From Gimesia sp. (GTDB lineage Bacteria > Planctomycetota > Planctomycetia > Planctomycetales > Planctomycetaceae): a stretch of DNA of 64,000 nt. Each line of letters begins with the position of its first letter. The first letter of the stretch is position 1. The stretch covers positions 1 to 64,000 of the forward strand of contig PAJV01000064.1 in NCBI GenBank assembly GCA_002706765.1. Direction: 5' to 3'. A program made the translations under genes and the position numbers. Below the pieces are notes generated by a model that saw nothing but the letters and a program-made list of their open reading frames with translations, was not told the origin of the DNA and did not search any database. Below, one piece after another: positions 33,856 through 39,476 of the stretch.

Positions 33856-34201
33856 AAGGCACCTGGTTTGTTATAACTGAAGAATTAGAGAGGACTTGAG
33901 AAATGTCTGTGAATATCTTTGTTTGGGAGAGAGGCTTTGATTATCAACACTTGAGCATTTCATGCAATACCGTTTTCTCACTGGTCATGCAGTGAGCAGA
34001 CTGTTGGCTTCAGTTCTAAAAAAATTCATGACTGTGAAATACAGCACAGATCACACCCGCAACGACCGCAATACTGAGACTGTTCTGGTTCATCAACTAT
34101 GAATCAGTGTGTCAGGGATTCTGTTCGAGGTTGACCATTATGATTACCAGCAGTGCGGCTTCCCTTCATAGCAAACAGAGTGAACGTTTCAGGAGATGCA
34201 G
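33856..34201. other. Divergent intergenic region
   Basis: About 345 bases between the zinc-ribbon gene (minus) and the YHS-repeat gene (plus). No RNA or hairpin stands out apart from the ribosome binding site at its right end. Confidence 0.45.
34191..34195 (+). promoter_or_regulatory. Ribosome binding site that fixes the start of the YHS-repeat gene
   Basis: AGGAG lies directly against an ATG at 34196, too close to use. It is six bases from a second in-frame ATG at 34202, which is therefore the likely start. Confidence 0.7.
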
Positions 34202-35098
34202 ATGAATTTGTTTCGGTTTGGAATGACAGCAGCAGTATTGGTATCTGTAGTCTGTCTCAATGATGCTGCGAATGCGACAGAAAACAGTCAGAAAAAACAG
34301 GCTCCCGTTGCCCTGGAGGGGAACTGTGCTGTCTGCCTGGTGAACGGTAAGAAAGTGGTGGCCGGAAAGCCTGAGTTTGCTGAGATCTATGATGGCCAGA
34401 CTTATCTGTTTCCCTCAGAGGAAGTGAAACAGAAGTTTAAAGCAGCACCGGTACAATATGTTCCTGCTTTAAAAGGAGATTGCACCGTCTGCTTTGCTCA
34501 TCATGATGGCCTGCGGAAGCCGGGTAAGATTGATCATATCAGTTTTTACGAGGGACGCGTATTTCTGTTTCCGAATGAAAGTATTAAAGCGGTTTTTGAT
34601 AAATCACCTGCAGAATACGCTGACGTTGATCTGGCCTGCGATGGGAAATGTATTGTCTGTAAAGTCGATGGCGGGAAAGACGTGCCTGGGAAACCGGAGT
34701 TTACGTCGATCTACCAGGGGCTGCGATATCAGTTCCCCAGCCAGGCTGTGATGCAGAAGTTCCAGAAAGATCCTGCGAAATATGTCGCTGGCTTAAATAA
34801 AAAACAGGCAGCCGCCAGTGATTCGCCTGCTGCCTCTGAACTGGTTTCCATTAGAGGGACCACCGGTTGTGCTGCCTGTGAATTCGGGGTGCATCCCAGG
34901 CAGAATCCGGATGAATTAGGCCTGGCGGTCAAAAGTGACGACGGAAAAATTTATGTGATTGAAGGCGCACATGCCTCACATCCTGAATTATATAAAGGGC
35001 GTTTTCAGAGCCTGGCAGTCAATGTAAAAGGTAAACAGATTGCTCAGAAAGGCAAGTTTATCTGGCTGGAACCTCAATCGATCGAAACTGTTAAATAA
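34202..35098 (+). CDS. Exported protein with three YHS-like metal-binding repeats
   Basis: 298 aa from ATG 34202. A signal peptide (~1-26) is followed by three tandem YHS-like modules of ~52 residues, each opening with a CxxC (Cys42/45, Cys94/97, Cys150/153) and continuing with a YxGxxYxFPS-type strand and a KFKxxPxxYV helix. YHS/TRASH modules bind transition metals, often copper or iron. A fourth, different domain (~213-298) has its own CAAC pair (223/226) and a Gly/Lys-rich beta region. It converges with the thioredoxin-YHS gene, and the bufferin-like locus lies 1.9 kb downstream, so metal handling is the likely context. Confidence 0.85.
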   Translation: MNLFRFGMTAAVLVSVVCLNDAANATENSQKKQAPVALEGNCAVCLVNGKKVVAGKPEFAEIYDGQTYLFPSEEVKQKFKAAPVQYVPALKGDCTVCFAHHDGLRKPGKIDHISFYEGRVFLFPNESIKAVFDKSPAEYADVDLACDGKCIVCKVDGGKDVPGKPEFTSIYQGLRYQFPSQAVMQKFQKDPAKYVAGLNKKQAAASDSPAASELVSIRGTTGCAACEFGVHPRQNPDELGLAVKSDDGKIYVIEGAHASHPELYKGRFQSLAVNVKGKQIAQKGKFIWLEPQSIETVK

Positions 35099-35243: not shown

Positions 35244-36056
35244 TTACTTACTGATCAGGTAATAACCCGGATTTGAAGTAAACTTGTCCCGTTCTGCTTC
35301 TGAGGTGAAAAATACGAGTCGCTCGCGATACACGCCTCCGGCATAGGGATCTCCCTCTACAGACTGATTGCGTTCCAGCTGTGAGACGCGGCATTTTCCT
35401 TCAAAAGCGGGCCAGTAGTTTTCAGGGGCTGCATCAAATTTCTGCTTGTGTTCAATCGACGCGAAACAGACCGTCTGGCTTTTGTATTCTGTTGTATATC
35501 GGACATCGCCTTCGACCAGTTCCTGATCATCCAGCATGCTTACCAGGCAGATCTTTTTGAAGGCAAACTCAGGTGCGACCTGCTTCTGACTCATTTTCTG
35601 GATGGGTTGCTGTTTAAGGGGAGGCGCTGCCTGCTCATGATTCACCAGGCAGATTTTACTGAGATGCCCCTGCATTTCGGGAGCTGCCACGTAACCGGAA
35701 ATCTTTTTTACAATTTTCAGTTGGGGAGTAATGATCACAGTGGTGGGCAGTCCGGCAACGCCAATCGCTTCTACCAGCTCCGAGTTTTCGTCTGCATCCA
35801 CGCGAATGGGAACAAAACAGGAGTTGATATGCTTGATGACTTTTGCGTCTTTATAAGTTTCACGATCCATTTTGTGACAGAATCCACACCAGGACGCACC
35901 AATTTGAATCAACATTGCTTTGTCCTCAGAACGAGCCTGAGTTGCTGCCTGTTTTAAATCAGTTTGCCATTTGATCTCTTCGGCGTATGTGGATTCCCCA
36001 AAGAAGGGAAGGCTTAATAAACTCAGCGAAAAAATGATAAAATGCCCGGTACGCAT
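35244..36056 (-). CDS. Thioredoxin-fold protein with two YHS-like domains
   Basis: 270 aa. A signal peptide (1-25) is followed by a thioredoxin domain (~30-130) with the active site ASWCGFCHK (Cys57/Cys60) and the cis-Pro region GLPTTVI. The C-terminal half has two YHS-like modules: KKICLV...CFASIEHKQKF and GKCRVS...FFTSEAERDKF. The CxxC of the first module is reduced to one Cys, so metal ligation may differ. Start ATG with AAGGAA upstream. This joins an oxidoreductase to the same repeat found in the facing gene. A periplasmic role in reducing a metal site or the Cys-rich product of the neighbouring locus is inference. Confidence 0.88.
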   Translation of the reverse strand: MRTGHFIIFSLSLLSLPFFGESTYAEEIKWQTDLKQAATQARSEDKAMLIQIGASWCGFCHKMDRETYKDAKVIKHINSCFVPIRVDADENSELVEAIGVAGLPTTVIITPQLKIVKKISGYVAAPEMQGHLSKICLVNHEQAAPPLKQQPIQKMSQKQVAPEFAFKKICLVSMLDDQELVEGDVRYTTEYKSQTVCFASIEHKQKFDAAPENYWPAFEGKCRVSQLERNQSVEGDPYAGGVYRERLVFFTSEAERDKFTSNPGYYLISK

Positions 36057-36988: not shown

Positions 36989-37522
36989 ATGAAACGTCCG
37001 GAAATGAATCGACGCGATTTTAATCGACTGACCTTTGCTGCTTTTGGAGGAGTGGTTGCAGGTTCCATGGCAGGTTGTCAGCCTGCATCTCAACCTGCAC
37101 CTGCAACACCTGATGCTGATGCAGAAGCCGGAAGTACAACTGCTGATGCGCATGACAATCATGACCATGCTGCTGAAGGGGGAGCCGAAACAGGTGATAA
37201 AGATGTCAGCCTGCTGATGAAAGAACCTCATGTCTGCCGCGGTTTGAATACCTGCAAAGGCAAACACGCCGGGATTGAAAATGAATGTGCCGGCCTGGGA
37301 GCATGTGCTTCCGTTGCCGAACACAGCTGTTCTGGTGAAAACGAGTGTAAAGGGCAGGGCGGCTGTGGCAGCAACCCCGGCATGAATTCGTGTAAAGGTA
37401 AAGGAGGCTGTCATATTCCTCTGATGCCTGATGCCTGGAAGCTTGCACGAGCTGAATTCGAAAAAGCCATGGAAAAAGCGGGTAAGAAAGTCGGTCCTGC
37501 ACCAGAACCCAAAAAAAATTAA
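36989..37522 (+). CDS. Bufferin-like RiPP precursor: Tat-type lipoprotein with five CxGxxxC units
   Basis: 177 aa, ATG with GAGGT six bases upstream. The N-terminus is a twin-arginine signal (NRRDFNRL, residues 7-14) running into a lipobox, GSMAGC, with Cys30. A low-complexity linker (31-80) has an HDNHDH cluster. Residues 83-141 then contain nine Cys arranged as five C-x-G-x3-C units: CRGLNTC, CAGLGAC, CSGENEC, CKGQGGC and CKGKGGC, every pair exactly six residues apart. A helical C-terminus follows. Cys-rich precursors beside DUF692 and DUF2063 genes are known as bufferins, whose cysteines are converted by the DUF692 enzyme. The Tat lipoprotein leader is unusual for that group. Confidence 0.8.
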   Translation: MKRPEMNRRDFNRLTFAAFGGVVAGSMAGCQPASQPAPATPDADAEAGSTTADAHDNHDHAAEGGAETGDKDVSLLMKEPHVCRGLNTCKGKHAGIENECAGLGACASVAEHSCSGENECKGQGGCGSNPGMNSCKGKGGCHIPLMPDAWKLARAEFEKAMEKAGKKVGPAPEPKKN

Positions 37523-37546
37523 GAGTCAGTTGAAAGACAGGGAAGT

Positions 37547-37585
37547 CGGGCTCCTTTTCAAACAGTTTGTGAAGGAGCCCGCTTT
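37547..37585 (+). terminator. Hairpin between precursor and enzyme genes (attenuator candidate)
   Basis: A 10-bp GC-rich stem CGGGCTCCTT / AAGGAGCCCG (37547-37556 with 37572-37581), followed by CTTTATATC. The T-run is short, so it may let part of the transcripts through. That would give more precursor than enzyme message, as expected for a RiPP operon. Confidence 0.65.
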
Positions 37586-37647
37586 ATATCAGAACCTGAA
37601 TGCAACACTCCTCAGAGTTTTAACTCAAGGAACGAAAGTAAAGACGC

Positions 37648-38577
37648 ATGCGGAAACCACGTCTGGGACATGAGAATCTGGGGCTGGGAGTCGGTCTGCG
37701 GACGGTACACTTCTCCCATATCCTGGAACACCGGCCGGAAGTAGACTGGTTTGAGATCATTTCTGAAAACTTTATGGATTCAAACGGTCGCCCACGTGCT
37801 GTTCTGGAACAAATTGCGGAACACTATCCGATCGTCATGCATGGCGTTTCGCTGTCGATAGGCAGTACCGACCCGCTGAACCGTGACTATCTGGAAAAAC
37901 TGAAAGGACTGGCGGAAAGGATTCACGCACGCTGGATTTCCGACCATGTCTGCTGGACCGGTGTCGCCGGCCGCAATTCACATGATCTGCTCCCCATTCC
38001 TTACAACGAAGAGACACTTTCCCATCTGGTGGAACGGATTCGAATCGTACAGGACATTCTCGAACGACCACTGGTCCTGGAGAACCCCAGCAGTTATCTC
38101 GAATTTCAGGATTCCACAATGAGCGAGTCAGAATTCGTCTGTCGCATGGCGGAAGAAGCGGACTGCGGTTTGCTGCTGGATGTGAATAATGTCTATGTCT
38201 CCAGTGTAAATCATGAATTTGATCCGGTCGCTTATGTAGAAGCAATTCCTGCAGAGCGGGTGGTGCAGTGTCATCTTGCCGGGCACACCAACTGCGGAAC
38301 TCATCTGATTGATACTCATGACGGGCATGTGGTCGACCCGGTCTGGAATCTGTTTCGCTTACTTCATCAGCGTACCGGAGGAGTCTCAACGTTGTTGGAA
38401 TGGGACGCGGAGATTCCTCCGTTTCCCGTTGTGCATCAGGAAGTATTAAAGGCCCGTCAGTACATGGATGAAAATCTTCCCGCGGCGCAAAATATGAAAA
38501 CAGAGATAGAGCCTGTCCACATCGATTCGCAGGCGATTCCTCATCCAGCATCATTTATTGTGGCGGAAGTGGAATGA
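37648..38577 (+). CDS. bufB: DUF692 multinuclear non-heme iron (MNIO) enzyme, BufB-like
   Basis: 309 aa. DUF692 enzymes (MbnB, TglH, ChrH, BufB) modify Cys residues of ribosomal peptides with two or three irons in a TIM barrel. Candidate ligands are all present: His65 in MHGVSLS, His100 in SDHVCW, His112, Glu145 in LENPSSY, Asp178/Asn180 in [10 protein letters not shown], His209 in CHLAGH, Asp222 and His224 near IDTHDGH, and Glu251 in LEWD. It starts 125 bases after the precursor stop and overlaps the next gene by four bases (ATGA). The C-terminal ~40 residues past the barrel are extra. The exact product (for example a thiooxazole) is not deducible. Confidence 0.9.
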
Positions 38578-39476
38578 GCCAGCAGAAACGCAAACTGGAA
38601 CAGCTGCAGCGCTGGATGCAGACCGTGATCAGCGCGCCGGGGGGAATCACAGCGGGCATCGCTTCGGAAGAAGCACAACGCGAGATACCGCTGCTAGACC
38701 ACCAGTTGGAGTCGGTAATTACCAGATCCAGTCAGCAGACGAGCCAGGAACGCATTGGTATTTATGCCAATGCCTACTATGCGCGGCTGCTCGAATGTCT
38801 CAGTGAGGAATATGCGGCCCTGGTGACCGCGATGGGCACCGCCGCCTTTGGTGCATTCAGTTTGCAGTATCTGCAGAAGTATCCTCCTGCCAGTTATACA
38901 CTCGGAGAGTTGGGAGCACGCTTCCCCCGCTTCCTGCAGGAGAGTCGACCTGAACCCGAGTCGCAGGCAGAAGCAGCCGACTGGACTGATTTTCTGATCG
39001 AACTGGCGACGCTGGAGCGGGTTTACAGCGAAGTCTTTGATGGTCCCGGAATCGAAAAGCAGGAACTGCTGACAGCGGAGAATCTGAAGGCAGTGACTCC
39101 GGAAGAATGGCCCGATCTGACTTTGAAGATGGCTCCCTGCTTTCGTTTACTGCAGTTTCAGTTTCCCGTTCACGAATATATCACCAGTACAAAACGGGGT
39201 GAGACCCCAGCGATCCCGGACCCGCACATCACATATCTGGCCATCACGCGTCGGCAATATATCGTGCGTCGCGCAGCCATCTCTGAAGCGGAGTTTTTTC
39301 TGCTTTCCTGCCTGCATCAGGGAATGCGAGTGGGTGAGGCGATCAATGAATTCGCAGCAGCAGGGCTCATGGAAGCAGATCAGCTGGCGGAACAGCTGCA
39401 TGTATGGTTTAAGCACTGGACCGAGTCGGCTTATTTTACAGATGTCAATCGCAGAGATGATTCAAAAGTAGTGTAA
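38574..39476 (+). CDS. bufC: DUF2063 partner protein of the MNIO enzyme, BufC-like
   Basis: 300 aa. The N-terminal ~110 residues match the DUF2063 putative DNA-binding-like domain: [12 protein letters not shown], then [30 protein letters not shown] and [20 protein letters not shown]. The C-terminal half is a winged-helix-like region with [26 protein letters not shown]. In DUF692 systems such proteins bind the precursor and hand it to the enzyme; the DNA-binding label is historic. It starts inside the stop of the enzyme gene (ATGA), so their synthesis is coupled. It is the last gene of the locus. Confidence 0.88.

Follow-up and report, generated by a model that had tools for sequence, protein, structure and literature searches.

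A bufferin-type MNIO locus of Gimesia sp. encodes a nine-cysteine precursor with a candidate twin-arginine lipoprotein leader

The thiooxazoles of the bufferin Buf1 have been published as copper chelators, and DUF692 genes of Caulobacter are described as copper-induced in the available part of PMC8224329. Bufferin leaders are described as Sec signals in the excerpted literature, and according to the excerpts of PMC12452194 about 16% of Buf2 carry lipoprotein signals after Sec export. The same excerpts raise the unsolved question of how precursors with a signal escape export before they are modified, and they describe a survey with two arms, the main one covering precursors that have a predicted Sec signal and a length below 200 aa and the second covering cysteine-containing proteins of any size without one; because the second arm took non-Sec proteins of any size, Tat precursors could sit there unrecognised. 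They also describe adjamnio-I, proteins of 122–293 aa with 8–21 cysteines, no predicted Sec signal and PME-type 2 partners, and tie leaderless precursors to PME-type 2, a type without the DUF2063 signature. In the available part of PMC12636315, DAG-RiPPs (lipo-DybAH, lipo-NedABC) were mined as peptides of 50–160 aa with an SPII prediction, a size range that misses a precursor of 177 aa such as the one analysed here, and the isolation of lipidated oxazolin is reported. Mining by Sec or SPII prediction and size may reflect a selection effect against Tat precursors. The word "Tat" is absent from the available text of PMC12452194, PMC12636315 and PMC13097082, "twin-arginine" from that of the latter two, and "lipoprotein" from that of PMC13097082. 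In the open-licence PMC literature, MNIO and twin-arginine were not found together, bufferins and Tat gave a twin-arginine mention only inside a reference list, and bufferins and "planctomycet-" gave PMC12636315 only, the planctomycete passage of which, as excerpted, concerns ChrH-like enzymes.

The locus lies in a window of 64,000 nucleotides from Gimesia sp. (PAJV01000064.1), the window being the whole stretch of DNA that was analysed, and its genes stand in the order precursor, MNIO and DUF2063 partner, as in bufferin gene clusters (Table 1). A sequence-only reading of the window had described a cysteine-rich precursor, a DUF692 enzyme and a DUF2063 gene starting in an ATGA at the enzyme stop (38574 against 38577), and all three were found at the positions it gave. 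The MNIO matched PF05114 with 369.5 bits and the NCBIfam model MNIO_BufB (NF050167) with 363.6 bits against a cut-off of 310, and the partner matched PF09836 (58.1 bits) and PF22106 NGO1945_C (28.4 bits), both over their cut-offs, which placed it in PME-type 1. With the BufB model passed, a PME-type 1 partner and the bufferin gene order, the proposal of a bufferin-like MNIO locus was supported.

Table 1. Features of the locus, in positions of the window.
Feature	Position	Strand	Evidence
RiPP precursor gene (bufA-like), 177 aa	36989..37522	+	ORF and homologues; BufA2 NF050166 22.2 bits
Candidate twin-arginine signal (RRDF, R8-R9 at 37010-37015) into lipobox SMAGC (C30 at 37076-37078)	36989..37078	+	
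HDNHDH in precursor linker, residues 55-60	37151..37168	+	
Nine-cysteine core, five CxGxxxC units, C83 to C141	37235..37411	+	alignment of 33, shuffles
Precursor C-terminal WxxARxxFE helix (predicted) and GPAP end	37436..37504	+	alignment, AF2 model
Hairpin in the precursor–MNIO gene gap, then T-rich stretch	37547..37581	+	fold z, genus alignment
MNIO (DUF692) enzyme, BufB type, C-terminal PHPxxxxxxE tail	37648..38577	+	Pfam, NCBIfam
DUF2063 and RRE-type partner (PME-type 1)	38574..39476	+	PF09836, PF22106

In HvfB, residues N175, D242 and H244 form the essential site 3 according to the excerpts of PMC13419390. Their equivalents, assigned by alignment with 3BWW and counting along it, a correspondence that is inferred and covers site 3, fell in the LDVNN and DTH motifs of the MNIO and were invariant in all 18 aligned MNIOs. 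In the source genome the MNIO was the sole PF05114 match, and the precursor was the sole significant match to the precursor query. The MNIO cassette was kept in 10 of 10 genomes of the source genus and occurred beyond the genus without the genus's flanking genes. The locus is real, conserved and of bufferin type. Its product is very probably a bufferin-like peptide that is rich in cysteine, modified by enzyme and able to bind metal. A promoter scan of the locus gave no signal over chance, and no copper genes of known kind were present among the locus neighbours scanned with Pfam. A YHS-repeat protein (34196–35098) and a thioredoxin-YHS protein (35244–36056), with a possible metal link, adjoin the locus and are syntenic through the genus; these neighbours hold a fixed place only in the source genus, and the thioredoxin-YHS protein had three homologues elsewhere, at other positions. 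Two source-genus genomes also encoded a second MNIO (L085 and L086, about 31% identical), with no such precursor within the range searched.

The survey of related loci was anchored on the MNIO in order to avoid a bias in the precursors; statements on gene neighbours hold for loci found through the MNIO. Among 392 Planctomycetota genomes searched, the BufB model had a match in 110 and a match over its cut-off in 70, and all ten genomes of the source genus were over the cut-off. We fetched 30 short loci, 60 regions, 29 wider regions and 80 named loci from a GTDB genome scan for the MNIO, the last being the best 80 of at least 582 loci. Duplicates and 22 loci with an MNIO less than 50% identical to that of the locus were dropped, leaving 144 MNIO rows, 68 from the planctomycete genome search and 76 from the named loci; 24 of them had no precursor by rule, a number that includes missed long fusions or rows with at most 3 kb upstream. 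Automatic leader typing and regular-expression core typing misassigned several precursors and were discarded; cores were retyped by HMM and leaders by RR-x-[FLM]. Typed by two HMMs, the leader-bearing precursors were mostly multiples of the six-cysteine unit (49 Buf2-type rows) or a nine-cysteine form (36 rows). L137 and L175, nine-cysteine by HMM with a Sec leader and no C-terminal tail, were neither counted nor aligned. The aligned set of 33 consisted of the locus precursor and 32 loci, L129 being left out of this alignment (A2) as a near copy. In a plasmid collection, the MNIO search gave 354 records, all below 60% identity.

The precursor core contained nine cysteines (residues 83–141); they form five C-x-G-x3-C units, and one cysteine is common to two of these. 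Shuffling never produced five units: over 20,000 permutations each, the 75-aa core gave at most 3 and the whole precursor at most 2. The units had been described as five of fixed spacing: they are present and conserved, but the spacing within a unit is fixed by definition and the distance between units varied. Over the 33 aligned leader-bearing nine-cysteine precursors, seven of the nine cysteines were invariant and the other two occurred in at least 90%, and the other precursors of this set were 42–92% identical to that of the locus. No Pfam family was over its cut-off in a scan of the precursor, and BufA2 (NF050166) gave 22.2 bits, under the curated cut-off of 60. When the nine-cysteine core was aligned to the 12-cysteine two-domain Buf2, C3 and C4, with an eight-residue loop, and C10 were missing. 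L006 and L038, from the same MNIO clade as the locus, had 11 cysteines with only C10 missing; their BufA2 scores were 62.8 and 51.3 bits, compared with 22.2 for the locus precursor. By this alignment the CxGxxxC array is the two-domain core of Buf2 (BufA2) in a shortened form, and the change would have run from twelve cysteines to nine. It could alternatively be supposed that the locus is a decaying bufferin copy that lost three cysteines and with them some or all of its activity, as the fall from 12 to 9 might suggest; the near-complete conservation of the cysteines across otherwise diverged precursors, the conserved added tail and the retention of MNIO and partner throughout the genus make this very improbable.

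The locus is thus like Buf2/BufA2 (NF050166; Buf_6/12Cys) in its bufABC order, its BufB-type MNIO, its PME1 partner and its C-x-G-x3-C/CKG core repeats, which can be aligned cysteine by cysteine. It differs in the nine core cysteines, where BufA2 has 6 or 12 conserved ones, in the WxxARxxFE tail, the RRxF leader and the PHP tail of the MNIO, and in its low score with the BufA2 model. Curated cut-off and cysteine count both place the precursor outside BufA2, but its mode of action is probably BufA2-like. The WxxARxxFE segment, C-terminal of the core, is an addition relative to Buf2. In the AF2 model of the locus precursor (mean pLDDT 45.6) there was no confident core fold, and ten-residue blocks with a mean pLDDT above 70 occurred only in residues 151–170, the WxxARxxFE region; the leaderless precursor of L170 gave a mean of 54.8, and both models were too low for fold searches. 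The linker motif HDNHDH had been put forward as a feature with possible metal ligands. Three or more linker histidines were found only in the source genus and one other genome (L002) among the 33 rows, and because of this narrow occurrence the motif is not a class feature. Judged from their sequences, the nine-cysteine core, the predicted helical tail and the predicted twin-arginine lipoprotein leader are together new relative to the known bufferins.

Captophorins (fontiphorin, oxazolin, gonophorin; excerpts of PMC13097082) share with the locus an MNIO–PME1 pair, a cysteine-rich precursor and 5-thiooxazoles, which here would be expected. The locus, known here from sequence alone, has no EGKCG repeats, and after the catalytic Asp its MNIO has Ala where the captophorin enzymes, in the same excerpts, have Phe, or Asp in the Cys-Lys group. 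The Asp tied to Cys-Lys substrates (Gadgil et al.) was Ala in 35 of 36 nine-cysteine Tat enzymes; tried as a class marker, this residue did not separate the MNIO classes. With DAG-RiPPs, as far as the excerpts of PMC12636315 describe them, the locus shares an MNIO-modified precursor, the modification being predicted here, and a lipobox.

The MNIO tree was a quick search in which 50 of 141 inner branches were open; it placed all 36 nine-cysteine Tat rows, the 17 leaderless rows and the 13 long-protein rows in one 79-row group (SH-aLRT 95), together with 11 no-precursor rows, L066 and L192. Nested in it was a 40-row group (97) with 34 of the 36 nine-cysteine Tat rows; its remaining members were five rows lacking a precursor and a single long-branched fusion. 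A short C-terminal MNIO tail (window 38533–38577; PHPxxxxxxE) was typical of nine-cysteine loci. In the form P[HQN]P...E it ended the enzyme in 33 of 36 nine-cysteine Tat rows, in none of 49 Buf2-type and none of 17 leaderless rows, in 1 of 13 long-protein rows and in 5 of 24 rows without a precursor. The other three nine-cysteine Tat enzymes had variants such as SNP or FHP, and 12 of the 17 leaderless rows had SNP or STP at this position.

The precursor starts with MNRRDFNRLTF and its leader ends with GSMAGC. The earlier reading of a twin-arginine leader running into a lipobox held for the locus itself, where an RRxF motif precedes an uncharged h-region, a lipobox cysteine (SMAGC) follows it as in DAG-RiPPs, and the genome encodes both TatC and Lgt. 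Among the homologues, the R, R and F of RRxF were present in all 33 aligned leader-bearing nine-cysteine precursors with varying adjacent residues, and were the sole invariant residues of the n-region, RK or KR never occurring; when leaders were shuffled, RRxF arose with a mean probability of 0.007 per leader. The lipobox cysteine was found in 23 of the 33, and the ten precursors without it were all from outside the source genus and resembled signal peptidase I leaders. RR leaders (RR-x-[FLM]) were also present on 16 of 49 Buf2-type rows, from Planctomycetota, Acidobacteriota and Gammaproteobacteria; ten of these precursors were scanned with NCBIfam and all matched BufA2, three of them (L134, L030 and L050) over the cut-off. 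The other 33 Buf2-type leaders had no RR motif, so the chemistry does not require Tat. The apparent novelty lies in the predicted twin-arginine lipoprotein signal on the nine-cysteine precursors. In two genomes (G216 and G220) the clade MNIO had no adjacent precursor, and an RR-leader precursor lay on another contig of each (L213 on G216:C27, L212 on G220:C22), these contigs being without a BufB-model match.

We consider it fairly probable that this is a bufferin-type (captophorin) locus in which the nine-cysteine precursor would receive thiooxazoles in the cytoplasm, be exported by Tat, become lipidated and bind copper at the membrane, with an excess of precursor set by a hairpin. Still in the cytoplasm, the precursor would be bound by the MNIO and the DUF2063-RRE partner and several of its core cysteines would be oxidised, 5-thiooxazoles being the most likely product (-4 Da per cysteine). 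Once matured, it would leave by Tat rather than Sec, C30 would be diacylated by Lgt, and cleavage by signal peptidase II would leave the product on the membrane, where it would bind excess copper or another soft metal. Weighing against parts of this reading are the ten of 33 precursors without a lipobox cysteine, the Ala in place of the Asp tied to Cys-Lys substrates, the lack of known copper genes among the scanned neighbours and, for the hairpin described below, the single compensatory pair, its absence from the terminator scan and the ten nine-cysteine Tat loci in which no stem satisfied the rule.

The same modified metallophore might instead be a Sec-exported lipoprotein, in which the two arginines would be a mere positive n-region. 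Related Buf2 precursors with leaders lacking RR, and the lipoprotein signals after Sec export on about 16% of Buf2 in the excerpts cited above, are in keeping with this. Tat prefers folded cargo. The absence of a folded core in the AF2 prediction also favours Sec, but all 33 otherwise diverged leaders keep a strict RR and a fourth-position F, which argues against it, as does the lower hydrophobicity of the h-region in the nine-cysteine set (1.83). The Buf2-type RR leaders speak against the Tat reading, their h-region being as hydrophobic (2.28) as that of the rest (2.26), so that only the nine-cysteine set was lower. We regard Sec export of this precursor as improbable and the Tat route as the preferred reading.

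The gap of 125 nt between the precursor and MNIO genes had a fold z of -3.94. Its stem (37547–37581) was present in 10 of 10 source-genus genomes and was followed by T-rich sequence; in the outer stem, 97.8% of cells were paired in the genus, with one compensatory pair in which both sides had changed in two sequences, and nine of the ten source-genus gaps had a fold z below -2. A terminator scan with a loop limit of 8 did not list this hairpin. A rule-based search, run without a shuffled control, found a stem of at least 7 pairs in 26 of 36 nine-cysteine Tat loci, with differing sequences, and no stem meeting the rule in the other 10; in 12 of the 26, at least 5 of the next eight bases were T. 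Gap ends were taken from alignment starts, so gap lengths are approximate. Among gaps of 30–300 nt, z was below -2 in 56 of 79 behind exported precursors (20 of 33 nine-cysteine, 14 of 15 Buf2 with RR and 22 of 31 Buf2 without RR) and in 1 of 7 of the leaderless and long-protein rows. Gaps shorter than 30 nt were found in 3 of 85 exported rows versus 23 of 30 leaderless or long-protein rows. Most exported systems have a hairpin between the precursor and MNIO genes, in leaderless systems the two genes mostly lie nearly end to end, and the gene-gap hairpin is common to nine-cysteine and Buf2-type loci. The hairpin would give precursor in excess over enzyme; such an excess, which a metal sink requires, would apply to exported precursors and probably not to leaderless or fused proteins, because 23 of their 30 gaps are shorter than 30 nt.

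A leaderless nine-cysteine unit with the tail stood before an MNIO in 17 rows from Flavobacterium, Mucilaginibacter, Roseivirga, Alteromonas, alphaproteobacteria and Streptomyces/Actinomadura; six of these rows (L151, L152, L154, L159, L179 and L181) were set by hand, the starts of their long ORFs being doubtful. In 13 further rows, cysteine-rich ends of the nine-cysteine or a related kind closed ORFs of 492–771 aa before an MNIO. These long-protein ("ferritin") rows were defined by an ORF above 380 aa, and the 6 of 13 scanned with Pfam all matched PF12902 Ferritin-like (L138, L156, L157, L061, L182 and L176, from several phyla and directly before the MNIO); others, among them L150, L153, L169 and L172, were classed by length only. 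Partners of six leaderless loci (L146, L149, L151, L162, L163 and L170, all with the DUF2063 signature) and four fused loci matched PF09836 in 10 of 10, with NGO1945_C over its cut-off in one. By these signatures the leaderless nine-cysteine loci with DUF2063 partners are an exception to the PME-type 2 link in the excerpts of PMC12452194. Adjamnio-I, compared here by description only, may overlap the leaderless nine-cysteine proteins and differs from the leaderless and fused loci in its PME-type 2 partners, against a DUF2063 signature in all 10 scanned. In L083, L084 and L087, distant MNIOs were preceded by proteins whose ends are rich in Gly and Cys; presumably these proteins resemble the published TIGR04222 type.

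Such relatives bear on whether the product stores copper at all. The nine-cysteine unit might be a general modified module, and the modified protein at the membrane might serve in redox or bind another metal (Fe, Au, Hg). Consistent with such a role are the leaderless and PF12902-fused nine-cysteine proteins beside MNIOs, with their mostly minimal gaps, and the YHS and thioredoxin-YHS genes among the genus neighbours. However, the leader-bearing nine-cysteine loci mostly keep the gap and hairpin layout of Buf2, and the MNIO of leader-bearing nine-cysteine proteins passes the BufB model. A role other than copper storage is unlikely in our judgement, if a little less so than Sec export, and we retain membrane copper binding as the preferred function.

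The sequence-only reading had also suggested a separate, planctomycete class, and this did not hold. The nine-cysteine unit occurred, leaderless or ferritin-fused, in Bacteroidota, Pseudomonadota, Actinomycetota and Acidobacteriota, RR leaders occurred on Buf2-type precursors of Acidobacteriota and Gammaproteobacteria, and the core aligned to Buf2 as Buf2 minus three cysteines, with 11-cysteine intermediates; a separate planctomycete class was rejected on these grounds. A broader proposal, to which we would give slightly less than an even chance, is that Tat serves a whole RiPP export class, in which the MNIO matures the precursor and Tat delivers it, with the nine-cysteine module reused both in leaderless cytosolic proteins and as the C-terminal domain of ferritin-like ones. 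If this is true, modification and export could not fall out of order, as Tat moves finished proteins, and the Tat leader would offer a direct answer to the problem of premature export; in many planctomycetes the product would be lipid-anchored as well. Where the module is reused, the MNIO would be modifying enzymes or metal stores and not peptides, and the leaderless and ferritin-fused relatives broaden what MNIO enzymes may modify. In L046/L139, L124 and L057, two differing RR-leader cysteine-rich precursors stood in tandem before one MNIO.
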